Below, piece after piece: positions 7,350 to 18,635 of a stretch of 64,000 nucleotides of DNA (its first letter is position 1; every line of letters begins with the position of its first letter). Both the position numbers and the translations under genes were made by a program. Source of the DNA: Clostridiales bacterium (lineage in GTDB: Bacteria; Bacillota; Clostridia; Saccharofermentanales; Saccharofermentanaceae); NCBI GenBank assembly GCA_017427465.1, contig JAFRST010000008.1, forward strand, positions 1 through 64,000, in the 5' to 3' direction. The notes under the pieces were generated by a model. That model worked only from the letters and a program-made list of their open reading frames with translations, had not been told where the DNA came from and searched no databases.

Positions 7350-9914
7350 ATGTTGTACAGCGAAACAAACCTGGTTAAGTCATTCGGAAGATCCATAGTC
7401 AGCAAGTCTGTCGATCCCGCTTTAAATATTGAGGAAACATCTGTCGACGCACTGTTCGAGGATTCGCTTCTTGTGGAGAAGATCCCCGTCATCAAAGACA
7501 TTTTCGCTCCGGGCAAAACGGTCTCTGTCAGCGACAAATTTTTCTGCAAGAGACTCGTTGCTTTCATCCAGGAATTCAACAACGGCAACATTTCCCAGTA
7601 CAGGATGGACAAGCACATCGACAAGCTCAAAGAGGATAAGAGATTAGATTCCGAGTACGAGCAGGTCATCATCCTGATCGAGAAATTAAGCCAGACTTTG
7701 CAGGCAAAATATCTTGCCAGATTCTATCAGTCATATTGGAACGGCGATTACGATTTTGACACGTTCCGCGAGATCGCCGAAGCCAACCAGAAAATGTTCA
7801 CCTGCGACTATGAAGTCCTGCAGTCTATAGCAGGCGATGCTTCTGCCACAGGCAAGGATTCTTCCATGAGCCGTCTGGTATCTCTCGGCCTCATCGTCGA
7901 CCGCAGATCTGCAGGCGAGGGCGTATCCCTCACAGGATTCGGTATCGAATTCGCCAAGGGCCTCGACGCCAAGAAGAAGCCTGCTCGCAAGTCTGCATCA
8001 GGCGCGAAAAAGCCCAGCATCAACGAAGACCTCTTCTCAGGCAGACTGCAGTCTTCCGAGAAGACCGAAGCTCCGCAAGAGACCGCTTCGGCCGCCTCAA
8101 AGCCTGACTTCAATAACATGGACATCGATGAAGCATTCGCATTCCTCGCAGCTGCACCGAGTCCTTTCAAGCCTGTTGATAAAGAGGAGCCGCAGCCCGA
8201 ATCCTTTAAGGCAAAGCCTGTGTTTGAAGCCCCCGAGGCAAAGAACATTCCCGCAGCTCCTTTGAGCATATTCGAATCCGGGGCTAAGGCTGAACCGGAA
8301 GCACCTAAGGCTATGCCCGAAGTTTCTAAGGCTAAAGCCGAGCCGGAAGTATCTAAGGCTAAGGCCGAGCCGGAAGTATCTAAGGCCGAGCAGGAATCAC
8401 CGAAAACAAGGCCCGGCACCTCAAAGTCTAAGTCAGAATCTTCCGCATCCAAGCCGAAGAGCACACCCAAGCCGGCCTTCGATCCGAAGGACACATCCAC
8501 TATGGGTGTTAAGCAGTTAAGACCTATCATCAACACTGAGAAAGATTCGCCTTACGCATCTTCGCCGATGGCATCAGACGGCTCCAGTCCGTTCAAGCCG
8601 GCCAAGTCCAAGAAGATCGAAGCAGATACCCCCAAGACAAAGACTTCAAAGTCCAAGTCCGCTTCTGTAACTGCTGAGATTCCTGACGACAATAATCCTT
8701 TCAGAGCAGCAGCAAATTCCGAGAGCAAGACTCCCAAGTCAGCAGAGAACAGCCCGTTCAAACCGATCGGCGCTCCTGCAGCTCAAGAGACTTCAAGCCC
8801 GTTCAAGCCCGCAGCTTCCACTAAGCCCGAGCCGGCCGCTAAGACAGCCGAGCCCAGTCCGTTTAAGCCCGCTGTTTCCGCTAAGGCTGAGACCGCTAAG
8901 ACAGTTGAGAACAGTCCGTTTAAGCCCGCTGTTTCCAAGCCCGAGCCCGCCGCTCCCAAGGCTGTCGATAACAATCCGTTTAAGCCTTTCGGCAGCACGG
9001 AAATGCCCAAGGCAGCCGAGCCCAGTCCGTTTAAGCCCGCACCCGCAAAAAAGGCTGAACCCGAGCCTGCTAAGGAGCCTGCAAGCTCTAATCCTTTCAG
9101 ACCTATCGGCAGCACAGAAATGCCTAAGGCAGTTGAGCCCAGTCCGTTCAAGCCTCTCGGAGCAGCAAAGACTGAAGCACCTCAAGCTGAGCCCAGTCCG
9201 TTCAAGCCTCTCGGTGCAGCAAAGACTGAAGCACCTGCTGCCGAACCCGGCCCCTTCAAGCCTCTCGGCGCAGCAAAGACTGAAGCACCTGCTGAGCCCA
9301 GTCCGTTCAAGCCGATCACGGCTAAGACAGAACCCGAAGCTCCCAAGGCTGAGCCAGCGAACAACAGTCCGTTCAAGCCTTTCGGCGCAACTAATACAGA
9401 GTCTGCTCCTGCAAGCGAACCCGCAAGCAGCAGCCCGTTCAAGCCTTTCGGCAACATAAATCAGGATCCGCCGGTACACATCGAAGGCGCCAATCCGAAT
9501 ATGTTCAACATGGGTAGCTTGTCTCATCCGAATTCCGACTCGTCTAAGGGCACATCCAAGCTCGGCTCGTTCATGTCCATGGATGACGACGAAGTGCTTC
9601 ACCAGGACAAGGAAACCGGCAAGCTCGGTTCTTACATGTCGATGGACGAAGGCGAGGATACAGGCGAGAGGCTCCCTCAGAGATCCGAGAGCTCGACCAA
9701 TTATTTCGCAATGAGCTCTGCAAGCTCCGCTCCGTCGCCGCTGTCATCTTCTGATGCGAACCCGTTCAAACCCATGAAGCCCGCAAATTCCGGAAGCTCT
9801 TCAAGAGGCGCCAACCCGAGCCCGTTCAAGCCGGCCACACCCGCTAAGTCTGAATCTGATGATTCACCTGCGGCTCCGGCTAATCCGAGTCCCTTCAAGC
9901 CTCTCGGTTCTTAA
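7350..9914 (+). CDS. SPFKP-repeat disordered protein with N-terminal globular domain
   Basis: 854 aa. ATG 7350 follows AGGAG. Residues 1-205 look globular and helical (KLKEDKRLDSEYEQVIILIEKL). From about residue 210 the protein is Pro/Ala/Glu/Lys-rich and almost certainly disordered. The motif S/N/G-P-F-K/R-P occurs 18 times, plus one degenerate NPFRA copy, often followed by LGAAKTEAP, and the last residues of the protein are SPFKPLGS. There is also a short KAKAEPEVS tandem and two GSYMSMD/GSFMSMD boxes (residues ~735-770). No signal peptide or membrane segment is seen. Repeated short linear motifs suggest a multivalent scaffold or docking protein in the cytosol. I do not recognise the family. 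Confidence 0.8.
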   Translation: MLYSETNLVKSFGRSIVSKSVDPALNIEETSVDALFEDSLLVEKIPVIKDIFAPGKTVSVSDKFFCKRLVAFIQEFNNGNISQYRMDKHIDKLKEDKRLDSEYEQVIILIEKLSQTLQAKYLARFYQSYWNGDYDFDTFREIAEANQKMFTCDYEVLQSIAGDASATGKDSSMSRLVSLGLIVDRRSAGEGVSLTGFGIEFAKGLDAKKKPARKSASGAKKPSINEDLFSGRLQSSEKTEAPQETASAASKPDFNNMDIDEAFAFLAAAPSPFKPVDKEEPQPESFKAKPVFEAPEAKNIPAAPLSIFESGAKAEPEAPKAMPEVSKAKAEPEVSKAKAEPEVSKAEQESPKTRPGTSKSKSESSASKPKSTPKPAFDPKDTSTMGVKQLRPIINTEKDSPYASSPMASDGSSPFKPAKSKKIEADTPKTKTSKSKSASVTAEIPDDNNPFRAAANSESKTPKSAENSPFKPIGAPAAQETSSPFKPAASTKPEPAAKTAEPSPFKPAVSAKAETAKTVENSPFKPAVSKPEPAAPKAVDNNPFKPFGSTEMPKAAEPSPFKPAPAKKAEPEPAKEPASSNPFRPIGSTEMPKAVEPSPFKPLGAAKTEAPQAEPSPFKPLGAAKTEAPAAEPGPFKPLGAAKTEAPAEPSPFKPITAKTEPEAPKAEPANNSPFKPFGATNTESAPASEPASSSPFKPFGNINQDPPVHIEGANPNMFNMGSLSHPNSDSSKGTSKLGSFMSMDDDEVLHQDKETGKLGSYMSMDEGEDTGERLPQRSESSTNYFAMSSASSAPSPLSSSDANPFKPMKPANSGSSSRGANPSPFKPATPAKSESDDSPAAPANPSPFKPLGS

Positions 9915-9934
9915 GAGCAGCAACCGGTAATTCT

Positions 9935-10123
9935 GCCTCATTATCGATCCGGCTAAACAAATTTGAGGGTAAACTTGAGGGTGTAGCCTCAAATTTCGCC
10001 TCATTATCGATCCGGCTAAACAAATTTGAGGGTAAACTTGAGGGTGTAGCCTCAAATTCCGCCTCATTTTCGATCCGGCTAAGCAAATTTGAGGGTAAAT
10101 TTGAGGGGGCCGCCTCAAATTCA
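9935..10123 (-). repeat. 63-bp repeat family, three tandem units (locus 1 of 3)
   Basis: Units at 9935-9997, 9998-10060 and 10061-10123 each begin GCCTCATTATCGATCCGG (third: GCCTCATTTTCGATCCGG) and contain TTTGAGG inverted against CCTCAAA. The same family lies in reverse orientation at 51124-51326 and 54949-55295. No gene is visible from 9915 to the promoter at 10431. Confidence 0.9.
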
Positions 10124-10278
10124 CCCGCAATTTTACCTGTATTTTGTTTTTGCTGCGTTTAATCACGCGTCCTCAGTTACGCACGATCTTGTGCACTGAA
10201 GACTGCTTCATGGATTCTTCACGAAAAGTCCTGTTACTGTGACGGATTTCAGCAAATTCTCTTTGTTTTGCAAATTTC

Positions 10279-10386
10279 CTTCACGGAACAACCTGTTTTC
10301 GTGAAGTTTTCAGGAATGGCGGGTACGGTTTTGATCGCAGGGGGTCCGCCTTTGAGCCGGAGGTCGGCGGGTACGGTTTTGATCGC
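10279..10386. repeat. Hairpin and two 48-bp-spaced direct repeats
   Basis: A CTTCACG/CGTGAAG inverted repeat (10279-10306) is followed by two perfect copies of a 21-bp word beginning GGCGGGTACGG, at 10318-10338 and 10366-10386, spaced exactly 48 bp. Confidence 0.75.
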
Positions 10387-10430
10387 GAGAATGCCTCCTT
10401 TCGCCCCCAAGAATTATCAACCCGATTTTA

Positions 10431-10459
10431 TTGACGACCATATCGGATTTTTGTATAAT
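10431..10459 (+). promoter_or_regulatory. Consensus sigma-A promoter for the structured RNA
   Basis: TTGACG at 10431-10436 and TATAAT at 10454-10459 are separated by exactly 17 bases, an almost perfect vegetative promoter. Transcription would begin near 10466. Confidence 0.85.
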
Positions 10460-10465
10460 TCCGTT

Positions 10466-10824
10466 GTTTTTAAAACAAACACATCAAGAATAGACAATGT
10501 TCTGTCAGAGTCTATGGTGATTTACGGGACCACTCCCACAAGGAGTCAAGGCCATACGGACAGCCGGGTCCACTGCCGATGATCGGTCTTCCGATCTATT
10601 GATTGAGTTAAAAGCTCAGTTTTATAAGTTGGTTACTTTATAACCGAAATGCGTAATTTGCGCAGACTTGTGAAATGGTCAATAAGAGTAGTAAAAGTAG
10701 TATTGCTATATAGACTCTGGATACTTGAATTCTTCGCCTGAGGGGGCACGTGTACCTTCCCCGGCGGGGATGACAAAGACTATATTATCAAGGCGCAAGT
10801 TGTGGATTACAGCTTGCGCTTTTT
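10466..10824 (+). ncRNA. Highly structured RNA or leader upstream of the polyamine operon
   Basis: No protein-coding frame of note is seen from the promoter to the terminator. A perfect 10-bp closing helix, CAGAGTCTAT (10506-10515) with ATAGACTCTG (10710-10719), encloses 214 nt. Inside are GGACC/GGTCC enclosing ACTCC-cacaa-GGAGT, then GATCGG-tctt-CCGATC, TGAG-ttaaaa-GCTCA and TGCG/CGCA hairpins. A further GGGG/CCCC stem-loop lies at about 10735-10775 before the terminator. Size, promoter strength and own terminator fit a stand-alone RNA; a raiA-type RNA is one candidate by size only. Its position directly before the polyamine genes also allows a cis-regulatory leader. It lacks the signatures I know for lysine riboswitch, T-box, tmRNA, SRP and RNase P RNAs. 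Confidence 0.65.
10793..10824 (+). terminator. Terminator just before the decarboxylase ribosome binding site
   Basis: GCGCAAG (10793-10799) pairs with CTTGCGC (10813-10819) and is followed by TTTTTG. It ends six bases before the GAGGTGGAG ribosome binding site of the next gene, so read-through at this hairpin would control operon expression. Confidence 0.85.
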
Positions 10825-10838
10825 GTTTGAGGTGGAGT

Positions 10839-12293
10839 ATGGAAAAGACAGAGTTGGATCAGACAAGAGCTCCGATCTATGAAGCGCTCGAAAAGTTCCG
10901 CGAGATGAGAGTCGTTCCTTTTGACGTGCCGGGACATAAGCACGGCAAGGGTAACCCCGAGCTCACGGCGTTCCTGGGCGAGAAGTGCGTAGGCGTTGAC
11001 GTCAACAGCATGAAGCCTCTGGATAACCTTTGCCATCCGGTATCGGTCATCCACGAAGCGGAGATCCTTGCTGCGGATGCTTTCGGCGCGAGTCACGCGT
11101 TCCTAATGGTAGGCGGCACGACAAGCTCGGTGCAGAGCATGGTGCTCTCATGCTGCAAGCAGGGCGATAAGATCATCCTGCCGCGCAACGTTCACAGGAG
11201 CGTTATCAACGCGCTGGTTCTCTGCGGCGCCATCCCTGTCTATGTTAATCCTGACGTTGACCACCGTCTGGGTATCTCTCTTGGCATGAGCCGCGACAAG
11301 GTTAAAGCTTCGATCGATGCCAACCCCGATGCGGTTGCAGTACTGGTCAATAATCCGACTTACTACGGTATCTGCAGCGACTTAAGAGCAATCGTTAAGA
11401 TGGCACACGACGCGGGTATGCTCTGCCTTGCAGACGAGGCACACGGCACGCACTTTTATTTCGGTGAGAACATGCCGGTATCCGCTATGCGCGCAGGCGC
11501 AGATATGGCTGCAGTCTCAATGCATAAGTCGGGCGGAAGCCTTACGCAGTCAAGCCTTCTGCTCATCGGTGAGAACGTGAGCGAGAGGCATGTCAGACAG
11601 ATCATTAACCTTACGCAGACGACATCGGGCAGCTATCTTCTGATGTCGAGCCTGGATATCAGCCGCAGAAATCTTGCGTTAAGAGGCAAGGAAGTTTTCC
11701 GCAAAGTAATTGAGATGGCAGAGTATGCCAGGGAAGAGATCAACGCTGTCGGAGGTTATTACGCTTACGGCAGAGAGCTCATCAACGGCGATTCGATCTT
11801 CGATTTTGATCCCACTAAGCTCAGTGTCCACACGAGGGACATCGGCCTTGCGGGCATCGAAGTCTATGACATCTTAAGAGACGAATACGACATCCAGATC
11901 GAGTTCGGTGATATCGGAAACATCTTGGCATATCTCTCGATTGGCGACAGAATGCAGGAGCTCGAGCGCCTCGTAAGTGCTTTGGCCGAGATCCGCAGAA
12001 GATATAAGAAGGATCCGGATGGTTTGCTCAGTCAGGAGTACATCGATCCCGAGGTCGTATGCAGTCCGCAGGAAGCATTCTATTCCAACAAGAAGAGCGT
12101 TCCGATCGAAGAGAGCGTCGGACAGGTCTGCAGCGAATTCGTTATGTGCTATCCGCCGGGGATCCCGATCCTCGCGCCCGGTGAGAGGATCACATCCAAT
12201 ATTCTGGATTACATTCTCTATGCAAAAGAGAAGGGCTGCTCGATGACCGGCTCTGAGGATCCGGACATCAACAATCTTAACGTTCTGGTATAA
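10839..12293 (+). CDS. speA: Orn/Lys/Arg decarboxylase, aspartate aminotransferase fold (probable arginine decarboxylase)
   Basis: PLP fold-type I decarboxylase. Start ATG 10839 follows GAGGTGGAG; the longer open frame runs back through the terminator and is not real. 484 aa, typical of the short Gram-positive SpeA/Cad family. Landmarks: FDVPGHKHGKG near the N-terminus, HAFLMVGGTTSSVQ, the cofactor Asp in LADEAHGTHF, and the PLP lysine in SMHKSGGSLTQSS. Family members decarboxylate arginine, lysine or ornithine. Arginine is most likely here because an agmatinase-family gene follows two genes downstream, giving arginine to agmatine to putrescine. First gene of a five-gene operon and preceded by the structured RNA. 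Confidence 0.88.
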   Translation: MEKTELDQTRAPIYEALEKFREMRVVPFDVPGHKHGKGNPELTAFLGEKCVGVDVNSMKPLDNLCHPVSVIHEAEILAADAFGASHAFLMVGGTTSSVQSMVLSCCKQGDKIILPRNVHRSVINALVLCGAIPVYVNPDVDHRLGISLGMSRDKVKASIDANPDAVAVLVNNPTYYGICSDLRAIVKMAHDAGMLCLADEAHGTHFYFGENMPVSAMRAGADMAAVSMHKSGGSLTQSSLLLIGENVSERHVRQIINLTQTTSGSYLLMSSLDISRRNLALRGKEVFRKVIEMAEYAREEINAVGGYYAYGRELINGDSIFDFDPTKLSVHTRDIGLAGIEVYDILRDEYDIQIEFGDIGNILAYLSIGDRMQELERLVSALAEIRRRYKKDPDGLLSQEYIDPEVVCSPQEAFYSNKKSVPIEESVGQVCSEFVMCYPPGIPILAPGERITSNILDYILYAKEKGCSMTGSEDPDINNLNVLV

Positions 12294-12307: not shown

Positions 12308-13162
12308 ATGAATTTATGGTTCAGTGAATATCATGCGCCTGACGTAAGGCACAGTCTCCGCGTTACGAGACACCTTTATTCGAGCAAGAGCGATTACCAG
12401 CAGATCGATATTTTCGATACGCCCGAATTCGGCAAGGTATTGGCGCTCGACGGTGACGTCATGCTCACGGAGCGCGACGAGTTTATCTACAACGAGATGA
12501 TCACGCACATCCCGATGTCCGTACATCCCAATGTCCAGGACGTCCTCGTCATCGGCGCGGGCGACGGCGGTGTCGTCAAGGAGCTCACAAGATACGAGAG
12601 CGTCAAGCGCATTGACCTGGTGGAGATGGATCCGCAGGTTATCGAGGCGTGCCGCACATATCTTCCGGAGAACGCGTGCAAATTAGACGATACCCGCGTG
12701 CATATCTACTTCGATAACGCGCTCAGGTTCATAAGAAGATCTTCCGAAGAGTACGACCTCATTATCGTTGACTCCAACGATCCGTTCGGACCTTCCGAGG
12801 GTTACTTCACGAGAGAGTTCTACGGCATCTGCTACAACGCATTAAGAAGCGACGGCATCATGGTAAACCAGCAGGGAAGTCCGTTCTATAAGCACGACGC
12901 TGAGGCGATGCAGAGGAGCCACAAGAGGATCGTAAACACGTTCCCGATAAGCCGCGTTTATCAGGCGCACATCCCGACGTACGCTGCGGGCTACTGGCTT
13001 TTCGGCTTTGCGAGCAAGAAATATCACCCGATCAATGACTTCGATGAAGAGCGTTGGAAGAGCCTTCATCTGAGCACCAAATACTATACGACCAAGCTGC
13101 ACATAGGCTCGTTCTATCTGCCGGCTTATCTCGAAAAGATGCTTATGGAGGTTGAATCGTGA
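12308..13162 (+). CDS. speE: Polyamine aminopropyltransferase (spermidine synthase)
   Basis: Transfers an aminopropyl group from decarboxylated SAM to putrescine. 284 aa, typical length. The nucleotide-binding GAGDGGVVKELTRY, the acidic strand DLVEMDPQV, and the catalytic-loop region IIVDSNDPFGPSEGYF are all present. AAGGAGGGC precedes the ATG, 14 bases after the decarboxylase stop. No SAM decarboxylase gene lies in the cluster, so either it is elsewhere or the main triamine route is the carboxynorspermidine pathway encoded by the last two genes. Confidence 0.92.
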   Translation: MNLWFSEYHAPDVRHSLRVTRHLYSSKSDYQQIDIFDTPEFGKVLALDGDVMLTERDEFIYNEMITHIPMSVHPNVQDVLVIGAGDGGVVKELTRYESVKRIDLVEMDPQVIEACRTYLPENACKLDDTRVHIYFDNALRFIRRSSEEYDLIIVDSNDPFGPSEGYFTREFYGICYNALRSDGIMVNQQGSPFYKHDAEAMQRSHKRIVNTFPISRVYQAHIPTYAAGYWLFGFASKKYHPINDFDEERWKSLHLSTKYYTTKLHIGSFYLPAYLEKMLMEVES

Positions 13163-14013
13163 ACAGGAACGTAGAGACATTTATCGGCTGCGGCAGCGAG
13201 TATTCTGAAGCGAAGATCGCATTGTTCGGCGCGCCTTTTGATTCCACGACGAGTTTTAGACCCGGCGCGAGATTCGGAAGCGCCGCCATCCGCCACGAGA
13301 GCTTCGGGATAGAGACTTACAGCCCTTATCAGGACAAGGATCTGCTTGACACTAAAGTCTTCGACTGCGGCGATCTTGAGCTCAGCTTCGGCTCACCTGA
13401 AGCGGCCCTTGCTGACATCGAGGATCAGACGCGCACGATCTTAAACGACGGCAAGCTCCCCATCATGATCGGCGGCGAGCACCTCGTAACTTTAGGCTCA
13501 TTCAGGGCGGTCTTTGAGAAGTATCCTGATGCTCATATCATTCATTTCGATGCGCACTGCGATCTGAGGGATGATTATCTCGGCGCAAGGCTCAGCCACG
13601 CGTGCGTTTTGAGAAGATGCCATGATCTTGTTGGCGACAATAAGATCCACCAGTTCTGCATCAGGAGCGGCGAGAGGGATGAGTTTGCTTTTGCAAAAGA
13701 GCACACGGACATGCATAAGTTTAATTTCGACGGGCTGAAGGAAGTCTGTGACGAGCTTGCTAAGAGCAACACGCCGGTGTATTTCACGATCGACCTGGAC
13801 TGCATGGATCCGTCCGTCTTCTGCGGTACTGGAACGCCTGAGGCGGGCGGCGTGAGCTTCACGGAATTGCTTAACGCGATCCTTACGGTTGCTAAAACAA
13901 ATATCGTGGGAGCGGACATCAACGAGCTCGCTCCCATGCTCGATCAGAGCGGCGCTTCAACGGCCGTCGCCTGCAAGACATTAAGAGAATTGATCCTTTC
14001 GATTAACGCATAA
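13159..14013 (+). CDS. speB: Agmatinase / ureohydrolase family
   Basis: Hydrolyses agmatine to putrescine and urea with a binuclear Mn2+ centre. 284 aa. Metal-binding motifs GGEHLVTLG, FDAHCDLRDDY and FTIDLDCMDPSVFCGTGTPEAGG are intact. The start is GTG 13159, overlapping the speE stop by four bases (GTGA), with GGAGG just upstream, so translation is coupled. The pairing with the decarboxylase supports agmatine rather than arginine as substrate, although arginase-family sequences cannot be told apart with certainty by eye. Confidence 0.9.
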   Translation: MNRNVETFIGCGSEYSEAKIALFGAPFDSTTSFRPGARFGSAAIRHESFGIETYSPYQDKDLLDTKVFDCGDLELSFGSPEAALADIEDQTRTILNDGKLPIMIGGEHLVTLGSFRAVFEKYPDAHIIHFDAHCDLRDDYLGARLSHACVLRRCHDLVGDNKIHQFCIRSGERDEFAFAKEHTDMHKFNFDGLKEVCDELAKSNTPVYFTIDLDCMDPSVFCGTGTPEAGGVSFTELLNAILTVAKTNIVGADINELAPMLDQSGASTAVACKTLRELILSINA

Positions 14014-14028: not shown

Positions 14029-15288
14029 ATGAGCAGAGTATTAGTTATCGGATGCGGCGGTGTCGCAAGTGTTGCGATCAGAAAGTGCTGTCAGGCAGAT
14101 GAGGTCTTCACGGAGCTTTGCATAGCAAGCCGCACGAAGTCCAAGTGCGACGCGCTCGCAGAAAGCCTTAAGGGCAAGACAAAGACCGTCGTTACGACCG
14201 CGCAGGTCGATGCGGATAAAGTCGATGAAGTCGTTGCGCTTATCAATTCATACAAGCCCGATCTGGTCATGAACATCGCGCTTCCTTACCAGGATCTGAC
14301 CATCATGGACGCATGCCTCATCTGCGGCGTCAATTACATGGACACGGCTAACTACGAGCCCGAGGATACGGACGATCCCGAGTGGCGCGCCATCTACGAG
14401 AAGAGATGCAAGGAGAAGGGGTTCTCCGCTTACTTCGATTACAGCTGGCAATGGGCTTACAAGGAGAAGTTCGAGCAGGCAGGACTTACCGCGCTCTTAG
14501 GCTGTGGCTTCGATCCCGGCGTTACACAGGCTTACTGCGCTTATGCCAAGAAGCATGAGTTCGACACGATCGATACGATTGATATCCTTGACTGCAACGG
14601 CGGCGACCACGGCTATGCTTTCGCGACCAACTTCAATCCCGAAGTCAACCTTAGAGAAGTCTCCGCTCCGGGCAGCTACATCGAGAACGGCAAGTGGGTA
14701 GAGATCCCCGCCATGAGCATCAAGAGAGAGTACGATTTTGACTCAGTCGGCATGAAGGACATGTACCTTCTTCACCACGAGGAGCTCGAGTCGCTCGCTG
14801 TTAACATCCCCGAAGTTAAGCGCATCCGCTTCTTCATGACCTTCGGCCAGAGCTATCTTACGCATATGAAGTGTCTCGAAAACGTCGGCATGCTCTCCAC
14901 AACGCCCATCGAATTTGAGGGTCACGAGATCGTCCCGATCAAGTTCTTAAAGGCCCTGCTGCCTGACCCCGCAAGCCTCGGTCCGCGCACACACGGCAAG
15001 ACAAATATCGGCTGCATCTTCACGGGCAAAAAGGACGGCAAGGACAAGACCTATTACATCTACAATGTCTGCGATCACCAGGAGTGCTACAAGGAAGTCG
15101 AGAGCCAGGCCATAAGCTACACGACCGGCGTTCCCGCAATGTGCGGCGCCATGATGCTCCTCACCGGCAAGTGGACCGACAAGGGCGTTCACACCGTCGA
15201 AGAATTCGATCCCGATCCGTTCCTCGACGCACTCGACAAGTACGGCCTGCCTAAGCGTGAGAACTTTGCGCCCGTATTGGTAGAATGA
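14029..15288 (+). CDS. Carboxynorspermidine synthase (saccharopine dehydrogenase family)
   Basis: NAD(P)H-dependent reductive coupling of aspartate semialdehyde with a diamine to give carboxy(nor)spermidine. 419 aa. An N-terminal Rossmann motif (VLVIGCGGVASVAI) is followed by NIALPYQDLTIMDACLICGVNYMDTANYE and the catalytic domain with LGCGFDPGVTQAYCAYA. AGGAGG precedes the ATG, 15 bases after speB. The adjacent decarboxylase gene fixes the pathway role better than sequence alone, since lysine-pathway saccharopine dehydrogenases share the fold. Confidence 0.9.
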   Translation: MSRVLVIGCGGVASVAIRKCCQADEVFTELCIASRTKSKCDALAESLKGKTKTVVTTAQVDADKVDEVVALINSYKPDLVMNIALPYQDLTIMDACLICGVNYMDTANYEPEDTDDPEWRAIYEKRCKEKGFSAYFDYSWQWAYKEKFEQAGLTALLGCGFDPGVTQAYCAYAKKHEFDTIDTIDILDCNGGDHGYAFATNFNPEVNLREVSAPGSYIENGKWVEIPAMSIKREYDFDSVGMKDMYLLHHEELESLAVNIPEVKRIRFFMTFGQSYLTHMKCLENVGMLSTTPIEFEGHEIVPIKFLKALLPDPASLGPRTHGKTNIGCIFTGKKDGKDKTYYIYNVCDHQECYKEVESQAISYTTGVPAMCGAMMLLTGKWTDKGVHTVEEFDPDPFLDALDKYGLPKRENFAPVLVE

Positions 15289-15292
15289 TGAT

Positions 15293-16525
15293 ATGAACGA
15301 GATTTTTTCCGGGCTCACATCTGTCATAGACGGCGGTGATATCAAGGCTCTGAAGACGCCCTGTTATATTGGCGGCGGCATCGAGGCTCTCAGGACGCCC
15401 TGTTATGTTATCGATGAGAAAAAACTTGTCAGTAACGGCGAGATCCTGGCTTCGGTCGCTTCACGCACCGGCTGCAAGATCCTCCTCGCGCAGAAGGCGT
15501 TCTCCAATTACGACTTCTATCCGCTGCTGTCAGATTATCTTGCCGGCACCGAAGCGAGCGGCCTTTACGAGGCACGCCTCGGCAAAGAAGAAATGCCCTC
15601 AGGCGAGGTTCACGTCTTCAGCGCCGCTTACCGCGACGATGAGTTCGACGAGCTCTTAAAATACGCTGACCACATAGTGTTTAACACTGTTACACAGCTT
15701 AAAAAATACGGCCCGAAGGCCAAATCCTGCGGTAAGAGCGTAGGGCTTCGCATCAACCCCGAATGCTCCACCCAGGAGGGTCACGAGATCTACGATCCGT
15801 GCGCCAGGGGCAGCCGCCTGGGCGTCACACGCGAAGTCTGGGACAAGGAGATGAGTGACGATGCCCTCGCGCTTTTGGACGGTATTCATTTCCACACATT
15901 GTGCGAACAGAACTCGGACGCGCTGGAGATCACCCTGCGTGCCGTAGAGGAGAAGTTCGGCGACGTGCTGCCTTCCATGAAATGGCTCAATATGGGCGGC
16001 GGTCACCACATCACCAAGAGTAATTACGACGTGGCAAAGCTCGAGAGCCTCATCACATACGCGCAGCAAAAGTGGGGCGTCGAGGTCTACTTAGAACCCG
16101 GCGAAGCGGTCGCTTTGAACGCGGGATATCTGCTTACCCACGTTCTCGATGTAGCCTGGAACAACGGCGTGAAGATCGCGATCATGGATGCCAGCGCCGC
16201 ATGCCACATGCCGGACGTCATCGAGATGCCGTACATGCCGCCTCTTCTTGGTGCTTCGAGCGATGACACAAAGCCGTACCGCTACAGGCTCGCAGGCCCC
16301 ACGTGTCTTGCGGGTGACGTCATCGGTGACTACGGTTTTGACAAGGAGCTCGCAGCCGGCGATCTGCTTGTTTTCGGAGACATGGCGATATATACCACAT
16401 GCAAGAACAACACTTTCAACGGCATGCCTCTGCCCGACATCTACAGGCTCAAGCCGGACGGGGCGTTTGAGAGGCTGACAGAGTTCGGGTATAAGGATTT
16501 TAAAAACAGATTAGGTAAGAATTAA
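15293..16525 (+). CDS. nspC: Carboxynorspermidine decarboxylase
   Basis: Fold-type III PLP enzyme releasing CO2 from carboxy(nor)spermidine to give (nor)spermidine, the last step of the alternative polyamine route. 410 aa. The PLP lysine is in LLAQKAFSNYD; HTLCEQNSDALE, NMGGGHHIT, EPGEAVALN and TCLAGDVIGDYGF match the family. The ATG is four bases after the preceding stop. The N-terminus is odd: residues 14-26 and 27-39 are a 13-residue tandem duplication (GGDIKALKTPCYI / GGGIEALRTPCYV) from a 39-bp repeat at 15332-15409. The normal family start is one TPCYV-type strand. Confidence 0.9.
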   Translation: MNEIFSGLTSVIDGGDIKALKTPCYIGGGIEALRTPCYVIDEKKLVSNGEILASVASRTGCKILLAQKAFSNYDFYPLLSDYLAGTEASGLYEARLGKEEMPSGEVHVFSAAYRDDEFDELLKYADHIVFNTVTQLKKYGPKAKSCGKSVGLRINPECSTQEGHEIYDPCARGSRLGVTREVWDKEMSDDALALLDGIHFHTLCEQNSDALEITLRAVEEKFGDVLPSMKWLNMGGGHHITKSNYDVAKLESLITYAQQKWGVEVYLEPGEAVALNAGYLLTHVLDVAWNNGVKIAIMDASAACHMPDVIEMPYMPPLLGASSDDTKPYRYRLAGPTCLAGDVIGDYGFDKELAAGDLLVFGDMAIYTTCKNNTFNGMPLPDIYRLKPDGAFERLTEFGYKDFKNRLGKN

Positions 16526-16901: not shown

Positions 16902-18635
16902 ATGACCGGCAAGGAACTCGAGCAGATCTATAACGAAGCTTACAAGGCCGTTTACTGGACAGCTATGTCGCTCCTCAAGAATGAGGCTGACGCGGAGGAT
17001 GTTGTCCAGGATACTTTCGTATCTTTTATTGAATCGTATTCCGATCTGACAGATACGAGCAAGGCTACGGCGCTGCTTAAGAAGATTGCTGCCAACAAGA
17101 GTCTTAACCGCATAAAGCTTGCGAAGACTGATGTTGCTGAAGATGAGTTCTTTGATAATGTCGAAGCTGTTCCGGAAGATTTCCTGCCTGATTCGATCGT
17201 CGAATCAGATGAGGCTCGCAAGATCGTCATGGACATCATCAACAATTATTTGTCTGAGGATGTCAGGAGAACGTTGATACTGTTCTACTTTGACGACCTG
17301 AGCACCAAAGAGATCGCGGAGGTATTGGGAGTCCCTCAGGGAACGGTTTTGCGTCGTCTTAACTATGCCAGAAATAAGATCAAGAAGGAGGTCGAGAAGT
17401 ATGAAAAAGATAATGATACGAAGTTGTTCGGTATGGCTATACCGTTCCTGACAAAACTTTTCATAAAAGAATCAGAGCAGGTAGCTTTCAAGCCCATGCC
17501 TGCTTCATTAGCAAATCTGTCCGCATCAGCAGAAGCGCCCTCACAGGGAGCCGGGATCAAGGCTTCGAAAGAAGCTGCAAAGAAAGGGACAGAGATCATG
17601 AAAACCAAGATCATTATTAGCAGCATCGCTGCTGTTATCGCAGTAGGAATCACTGTAGGCGTAATCGTCGCAGTATTAAGCAAAAAGAAGGATCAGAAGC
17701 CTGAGCCGAAGCATGTCGAATCGGCAGAAGGCGAATACGAAGAAGAAGAGGAAGAAACAACCACAACAGAGACCACAAAGGCTATACCTAAGGCAGACAA
17801 GGACCTCTTTAGATGGAGCGACAACACCATTATCGATCTGACAGATGAAGGCCTTCAGGCGGAAGTGCTTGTTATCCCTGCAGAGTGCGATGGCATTGAT
17901 TGCTGCCTTGATAACGGTATCTACACGGAAGTGTATTTCGAGTCTGACAACGATATAAATATCGGAGTTGCTTTCAACGGTTCTCATACTGTCGAGAAGA
18001 TAGTCCTGCCGAAGAATCTTTCATCGCTGGATGTGTATGCTTTTGCAGACTGCAGCGCTTTGAAGGAAATCGAGCTTCCCGAAGGCCTTACCGAGATGGG
18101 TGCCGGTGTTTTCCAGGATTGCGTTTCGTTGAAGAGCATGGAGATCCCTGCAGGCGTTACGGTGCTTCCGAGTTTCCTCTTCTGCGGCTGTACAAATCTT
18201 GAGAGCGTAACGATCAAAGGCGATGTAACCGAGATCGGCGCCGCTTGCTTTATCCAGTGCACGAACCTTAAGAGCATAGAGATACCGTCTACGGTTAAGA
18301 CTATCGGATTTAACTGCTTCGCAGACTGCAAGTCATTAACATCCGTTGACCTGCCTGAAGGCCTCGAAAATCTGGACACTGACATTTTCTCAGGATGCTC
18401 TTCGATGACTTCATTGAGGATCCCTTCATCTGTAAAAGATATCGGTCAGAACATCTTGCTCGGCAGCGGCGTTACTGATGTTTATGTTCCGGCAGATCTT
18501 GAGCTCACCGAATGGGAACACAATTCTTTCTGGAATTCGGAAGAGCACATGAGGATCCACGTAACAGCCGGATCATGGGCAGATGCGAATTTCGATGATG
18601 TGTTCATCGGTTATTTAGAGAAGACCTACGATTAA
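16902..18635 (+). CDS. ECF-type sigma factor fused to a transmembrane helix and extracellular leucine-rich repeats
   Basis: 577 aa; AAAGGAGG precedes ATG 16902. Residues 5-75 form sigma region 2 (YNEAYKAVYWTAMSLLKNEADAEDV split over two helices, ending VVQDTFVSF). Residues 110-165 form region 4 (LSTKEIAEVLGVPQGTVLRRL helix-turn-helix). A ~65-residue linker leads to one hydrophobic helix at about 236-259, then a Lys cluster, an acidic and Thr-rich stretch (EEEEEETTTT), and BspA/LRR_5-type leucine-rich repeats from about 365 to 530 (LPEGLTEMGAGVFQDCVSL). Topology predicted: sigma inside, repeats outside. No separate anti-sigma gene follows, so the tether itself may control it. A lipoprotein gene lies 38 bases downstream. 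Confidence 0.85.
   Translation: MTGKELEQIYNEAYKAVYWTAMSLLKNEADAEDVVQDTFVSFIESYSDLTDTSKATALLKKIAANKSLNRIKLAKTDVAEDEFFDNVEAVPEDFLPDSIVESDEARKIVMDIINNYLSEDVRRTLILFYFDDLSTKEIAEVLGVPQGTVLRRLNYARNKIKKEVEKYEKDNDTKLFGMAIPFLTKLFIKESEQVAFKPMPASLANLSASAEAPSQGAGIKASKEAAKKGTEIMKTKIIISSIAAVIAVGITVGVIVAVLSKKKDQKPEPKHVESAEGEYEEEEEETTTTETTKAIPKADKDLFRWSDNTIIDLTDEGLQAEVLVIPAECDGIDCCLDNGIYTEVYFESDNDINIGVAFNGSHTVEKIVLPKNLSSLDVYAFADCSALKEIELPEGLTEMGAGVFQDCVSLKSMEIPAGVTVLPSFLFCGCTNLESVTIKGDVTEIGAACFIQCTNLKSIEIPSTVKTIGFNCFADCKSLTSVDLPEGLENLDTDIFSGCSSMTSLRIPSSVKDIGQNILLGSGVTDVYVPADLELTEWEHNSFWNSEEHMRIHVTAGSWADANFDDVFIGYLEKTYD

Follow-up and report, generated by a model that had tools for sequence, protein, structure and literature searches.

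Polyamines are among the commonest cations of the cell, and to our knowledge only one polyamine riboswitch class is accepted, and it is rare. The known spermidine riboswitch is a variant of the SAM-I riboswitch with 13 aligned representatives (Salvail et al. 2023, PMC10853860), and its authors state that further polyamine riboswitch classes must exist. The odc1 and potE motifs have also been described as candidate RNA elements near polyamine genes (PMC8632094). Rfam lists, as RF02440, a 54-nt Streptococcus sRNA to which no regulatory function is assigned. Here we analysed a leader in a 64,000-nt stretch of a Clostridiales genome (contig JAFRST010000008.1, positions 1 to 64,000), hereafter called the window. 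On balance, comparison of homologous sequences suggests that this leader would represent a new spermidine riboswitch class of ~200 nt, unrelated to the SAM-I-derived one, which is widespread in the Bacillota and has been filed as a 54-nt sRNA.

Organization of the leader and its operon

The leader is located between a near-consensus promoter and five polyamine genes:

10431-10459, + strand: promoter, TTGACG-17 nt-TATAAT, 11 of 12 consensus matches
10506-10719, + strand: complete structured RNA, with P1 as its outer closing helix (sequence pairing and minimum free energy (MFE) fold)
10790-10828, + strand: intrinsic terminator, stem 10790-10822 and U tract, with the 5' arm 10793-10804 forming one antiterminator half (sequence and fold)
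10830-10835, + strand: Shine-Dalgarno sequence of speA, AGGTGG (sequence), with the speA ATG at 10839
10839-12293, + strand: speA, Orn/Lys/Arg decarboxylase (PF01276, E 4e-70)
12308-13162, + strand: speE, spermidine synthase (NCBIfam PRK00811/TIGR00417, above cut-off)
13159-14013, + strand: speB, agmatinase (TIGR01230, above cut-off)
14029-15288, + strand: carboxynorspermidine synthase/dehydrogenase, CASDH (NF043000, E 5e-121, under its own cut-off; PF16653, PF03435)
15293-16525, + strand: nspC, carboxynorspermidine decarboxylase (TIGR01047, above cut-off)

The promoter, the 10-bp closing helix around 214 nt, the terminator and the speA ribosome binding site had been proposed in an earlier note on this DNA, and sequence and fold place all of them where it had put them. 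P1 is formed by CAGAGUCUAU (10506-10515) pairing with AUAGACUCUG (10710-10719); its 10 bp enclose an RNA of 214 nt end to end and are present in the MFE structure. The 373-nt leader folds with an MFE of -122.6 kcal/mol, as compared to -96.7 ± 6.7 kcal/mol for dinucleotide shuffles (z = -3.86), and none of the 100 shuffles reached equal stability. An upstream promoter matching at least 10 of the 12 consensus positions is likewise found in 90 of 112 non-redundant homologues, as compared to 6 of 112 shuffled sequences. The genome of the window carries a single copy of the RNA. Given that the operon comprises speA, speE, speB, CASDH and nspC, both routes from putrescine to spermidine, through SpeE and through CASDH/NspC, are present.

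Several neighbouring features were also observed. The gene at 7350-9914 encodes an 854-aa protein without a Pfam match, which is rich in NPFKP/SPFKP repeats, and several tandem arrays lie within the gene. Between this gene and the leader promoter, a 63-base tandem repeat occurs three times with 93% matching (9929-10122). Downstream of the operon, 16902-18635 encodes an N-terminal ECF sigma factor (regions 2 and 4) fused to a likely membrane span and C-terminal BspA-type leucine-rich repeats (LRR_5), an unusual sigma factor, possibly with an outward-facing sensor.

Relationship to Rfam families

The covariance search against Rfam that the earlier note had called for returned one strong match in the leader:

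10527-10579, + strand: RF02440 "Streptococcus sRNA SpF59 (ldcC RNA)", 69.4 bits, gathering score 37.2, full length of the model (1-54)

The RNA is therefore already known in part, since Rfam has about a quarter of it (54 nt). A high-scoring match to a known family was the result that the earlier note had set against its own proposal. Since RF02440 is a 54-nt fragment without a named function, the match alters the novelty of the RNA and leaves the interpretation intact. We found no function for the SpF59/ldcC RNA in the open-access literature, and an earlier report in subscription papers or preprints is possible.

At E values up to 5, the leader matched no other Rfam family beyond two chance-level hits, MIR1878 and Atu_C9, which lie far under their gathering scores. 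The lysine riboswitch, the T-box and the SAM-I variant were discarded as identities of the RNA, with no match in the leader even at E 5, and the earlier remark that signatures of the first two were absent is thus correct. For SAM-I, the whole window also lacks a match at the gathering score. The raiA model appears neither among the Rfam matches of the window nor in the leader with relaxed thresholds.

Conserved structure of the RNA

About 190 loci were gathered by Rfam score or by an exact 22-nt core pattern, with gene context ignored. Conservation runs well beyond the 54-nt model and covers ~165 nt, or ~215 nt with the outer helix. We built a covariance model of 165 positions, R1, from a 40-sequence alignment (A3) and a hand-drawn structure. 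The conserved elements in the window are as follows:

10528-10689, + strand: conserved 165-position RNA with both domains (R1, 164.5 bits, E 2e-44, the window's own row being one of the 40 in the model alignment)
10528-10570, + strand: helix P2 (10528-10531/10567-10570) and hairpin P2b (10532-10536/10542-10546), both-side changes in P2 and P2b
10550-10565, + strand: helix P3, GGC 10550-10552/GCC 10563-10565 (covariation)
10557-10578, + strand: possible pseudoknot, CGG 10557-10559/CCG 10576-10578 (98% of cells paired, invariant)
10581-10596, + strand: hairpin P4, all four main pairs changing on both sides
10597-10684, + strand: P5 (10597-10602/10679-10684), closing the 3' multibranch domain, 99-100% paired; P6 (10605-10617), covarying
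10620-10675, + strand: P7 (10620-10629/10666-10675); P8 (10631-10635/10641-10645), covarying; P9 (10650-10654/10660-10664), from the fold

R1 matches end to end in all 100 loci chosen, and the structured region is conserved far above chance. In A3, 95.4% of cells are paired, whereas sliding the partners by 1-3 columns leaves 30-45% paired; changes on both sides occur in 18 pairs, as compared to 6.7 ± 1.8 in shuffles. The 100-locus alignment gave 96.6% paired cells against 26-45% when slid, and both-side changes in 28 of 42 pairs, the shuffles giving 10.5 ± 1.9, although this alignment was fitted to R1 and leans towards the model, whereas A3 was aligned independently. Both alignments thus reveal the conserved, covarying aptamer expected of a riboswitch.

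In P3, the GGC/GCC helix becomes GCC/GGC in seven sequences, Streptococcus included, and AGC/GCU in two. An RNAalifold pairing of columns 41-43 with 48-50 was rejected, as two sequences break it (GG) whereas P3 covaries. P7 is 99% paired and changes mainly between G-U and A-U; P5 and P7 hardly vary, and their support comes from pairing and not from covariation. The core is an almost invariant AAGGCCAUACGGACAGCCGGGUC, with AAGGCCAUACGGACAGCC as a core stretch of the conserved RNA. Here, the CGG/CCG pseudoknot is a possible pairing that we propose from the sequence; being invariant, it gains no support from covariation. The sequence of P1 varies among loci, and its 5' and 3' flanks nevertheless match within a locus (-22.8 kcal/mol, as compared to -17.7 ± 0.32 kcal/mol when swapped between loci; 0/3000).

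Two conserved stretches recur at all of the loci, AGAGU downstream of P5 and AGACUCU upstream of the 3' strand of P1, which could pair with each other or, alternatively, with the P1 5' strand; one of these pairings may be the real one, or both may be switch states. In one locus from the window's genus (L002, the same locus as L040), the 5' domain is intact and the 3' domain begins normally, but the ACTTGTGAAA...TCAATAA strand is absent; terminator and speA are still present, and the locus is either a broken switch or an assembly error.

An arrested leader peptide would be another way for such a leader to sense polyamines, by stalling of the ribosome on a short ORF that runs through the core, and an open frame at 10268-10582 does cross the core in the window. 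Among 117 homologues, however, a start codon with a Shine-Dalgarno sequence before the core was found once in each of two frames, no frame is kept, and the varying stem lengths break any frame. We therefore regard leader-peptide arrest as scarcely credible.

Distribution and linkage to polyamine genes

Of 115 genomes in the family of the window, 49 carry the RNA. Wider sampling found it in 41 of 391 genomes at class level (29 of 222 genera) and in 18 of 398 at phylum level. The exact 22-nt core pattern occurs in at least 118 DNA stretches in named records; the matches listed include Paenibacillus, Bacillus, Neobacillus, Blautia, Faecalibacterium, Flavonifractor, Acidaminococcus and Phascolarctobacterium, as well as bins whose record titles read Spirochaetes and Synergistaceae. 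The RF02440 gathering score is exceeded by the window and by nearly all of the loci collected with Rfam. The restriction to Streptococcus in the family's name does not hold, with strong matches across Clostridia and Bacilli that score higher than those in Streptococcus; these matches correct Rfam's description and not the family membership. In Streptococcus itself, 6 of 98 species carry the RNA, in a divergent form that scores 34-42 bits with RF02440 and 73-124 bits with R1. R1 also detects copies that RF02440 misses (G276, G585). None of the phages searched contained the RNA, and the plasmids searched yielded one copy, on a Paenibacillus megaplasmid. In this 2.7-Mb replicon of Paenibacillus cellulosilyticus, filed as a plasmid (NZ_CP054613.1), the RNA precedes a CASDH gene; the replicon suggests a second chromosome or chromid.

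At all 176 loci with a readable downstream gene, the next gene was polyamine-related: SpeA (arginine decarboxylase) in 73, SpeD (SAM decarboxylase) in 48, CASDH in 30 and PotA (polyamine importer) in 25. Seven further loci stop at a contig end. The genes were named by phmmer similarity to named members, with Pfam in addition for SpeD and the ABC ATPases. The earlier note had asked whether the RNA is always linked to speA; the link is to polyamine genes at all 176 readable loci, and to SpeA itself at 73 of them. Longer stretches contain operons such as speD-speA-speE-speB-CASDH-nspC, and some loci have only speA or only import genes. In five of the six Streptococcus loci, the RNA and its terminator precede speA, and the remaining sequence (L214) is not long enough to reveal the gene. 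Copies before other genes or standing alone were absent among the loci read. The RNA thus holds the consistent position upstream of one pathway's genes that is expected of a riboswitch.

Expression platform

The terminator 5' arm has a complementary partner inside the aptamer:

10652-10670, + strand: antiterminator half within the aptamer, P9 and the P9/P7 3' strand (duplex and swap test)

In the window, the antiterminator is a 12-bp duplex between 10652-10663 and 10793-10804 (-14.9 kcal/mol). Of 176 homologous leaders, 169 have a strong hairpin and a U tract downstream of the RNA, and the terminator was detected in 110 of 113 non-redundant loci, as compared to 34 of 113 shuffled controls. When the 5' arm of the terminator was compared with the whole RNA, the P9/P7 3' strand was in most cases its best partner (median rank 1%). 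The arm pairs with P9/P7 of its own locus at -13.9 kcal/mol, as compared to -11.1 ± 0.23 kcal/mol when swapped (0/5000 permutations), and the result was 0/5000 both within gene classes and on 32 distinct targets, but weak in the CASDH class alone (96/3000); these swap tests lessen the effect of relatedness and do not remove it. By computation, the leaders thus possess a mutually exclusive pairing platform, another hallmark expected of a riboswitch.

When only the terminator 5' arm of the window has been made, the state with P5 and P7 forced (-98.8 kcal/mol) and that with the antiterminator forced (-98.0 kcal/mol) are nearly equal. Over the full leader, the terminator state is favoured over the antiterminator state by 11 kcal/mol, and switching must therefore be kinetic. 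Near-equal states followed by a winning terminator would be the balance expected of a co-transcriptional OFF switch. Terminators linked to PotA (for example at L046, L065 and L110) often have a distinct 5' arm of the GUGAUAUGC type. Since the arms, taken as a class, continue to match the P9/P7 strands of their own loci, the platform has changed along with the aptamer.

The leader anatomy and the gene linkage argue for action in cis over the trans-acting role implied by the sRNA label of RF02440, and as far as sequence can tell, the RNA would almost certainly be a cis-acting attenuator of polyamine genes. The proposal of a new cis-regulator of polyamine synthesis made in the earlier note is strongly supported by the synthesis or import genes found at every readable locus, the terminator and the matched antiterminator. 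Its other reading, an independent raiA-like RNA, is not supported, given the lack of a raiA match, the invariable linkage and the attenuator anatomy. More generally, a trans-acting or structural RNA that lies before the operon by chance is very unlikely: it would account for the RNA's own promoter and terminator and for the filing of SpF59 as an sRNA, but a terminated leader would look identical, and chance would leave unexplained the 176/176 linkage over four operon types, the match between terminator arm and aptamer within each locus, the absence of other-gene or stand-alone copies and the single copy in the window's genome.

A cis-acting attenuator could also be read by an RNA-binding protein, as with PyrR or TRAP. 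The structural and linkage evidence fits a protein sensor equally well, and the almost invariant stretches could be a protein site. However, no partner protein gene accompanies the RNA at the loci read, the two domains of ~165-215 nt are far above the usual size of a protein site, and the protein would be needed throughout Bacilli, Clostridia, Negativicutes and the bins labelled Spirochaetes and Synergistaceae. We consider a protein sensor rather unlikely.

Proposed mechanism and ligand

We therefore return to direct sensing by the RNA. The leader is probably a polyamine-responsive transcription attenuator, most likely an OFF riboswitch for spermidine, although its assignment is drawn from sequence comparison. 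In this mechanism, the strong promoter would start the ~373-nt leader, and 10506-10719 would fold into a two-domain aptamer, consisting of P2/P3 with the AAGGCCAUACGGACAGCCGGGUC core and the P5-P9 multibranch domain. When polyamine is scarce, the terminator 5' arm (GCGCAAGUUGUGG) would pair with the aptamer in its P9/P7 region; this antiterminator pairing would block the terminator and allow transcription of speA-speE-speB-CASDH-nspC. When polyamine is plentiful, it would hold the aptamer closed, the terminator arm would be free, and transcription would halt directly before the speA ribosome binding site. We infer the direct action of a ligand on the RNA, spermidine as this ligand and the OFF sign.

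SpeA, SpeD, CASDH/NspC and Pot have no common substrate, and all of them raise cellular spermidine. As more spermidine is the sole result that they have in common, spermidine is the most likely ligand. A spermidine OFF switch would explain all four gene types, while putrescine, agmatine, SAM and arginine would not. The same riboswitch anatomy might serve a ligand other than spermidine, for example putrescine, agmatine, cadaverine, a carboxylated intermediate or a signal that is not a polyamine. The linked genes do also control putrescine and agmatine, and at some loci only speA or only import is regulated. Putrescine, however, is consumed by CASDH/NspC and SpeD/SpeE, so that putrescine feedback leaves these genes unexplained, and the common outcome of the four gene types is spermidine; a different ligand is thus improbable.

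Published expression data bear on the spermidine OFF switch. In a Streptococcus pneumoniae potABCD deletion with lowered polyamines, speA (SP_0916) rose 16.9-fold and speE 14.4-fold by qRT-PCR (PMC8540371), but the rise was absent from the RNA-seq of the same study, and the link of the RNA to speA was seen at the level of the genus, SP_0916 itself not being among the identified loci. SP_0916, the former "lysine decarboxylase", is an arginine decarboxylase (PMC7531197), and the alias ldcC probably stems from this former name.

Comparison with known systems

If the proposal is true, a widespread polyamine riboswitch would act over four operon types in many Bacillota from gut and soil, and an orphan Rfam entry would become a testable regulator. 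It would also offer a way for polyamines to control speA in streptococci, in which capsule formation is affected by polyamine synthesis and transport (PMC7531197).

The RNA shares the size and multibranch appearance of the lysine riboswitch, the T-box and raiA RNA, but none of these matched in the leader. Judged from the text descriptions (PMC8632094), it differs from odc1, a hairpin with a pseudoknot and an unusual uORF-type element, and from potE, in which covariation is weak and an expression platform is lacking. With the SAM-I-variant spermidine riboswitch it shares the proposed role, OFF control of transcription into polyamine genes (speB, speE and ldcC in that class), but the Rfam search gave no SAM-I match for it, and its fold is different and larger. 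RF02440 has the same core sequence and P2 hairpin, and its alias ldcC points to the decarboxylase gene. Unlike the 54-nt Streptococcus entry, the conserved RNA spans ~165-215 nt, occurs across the Bacillota and is the leader of polyamine genes. Riboswitches as a kind and the RF02440 fragment were already known; what is new is probably a riboswitch class hidden in an orphan family.
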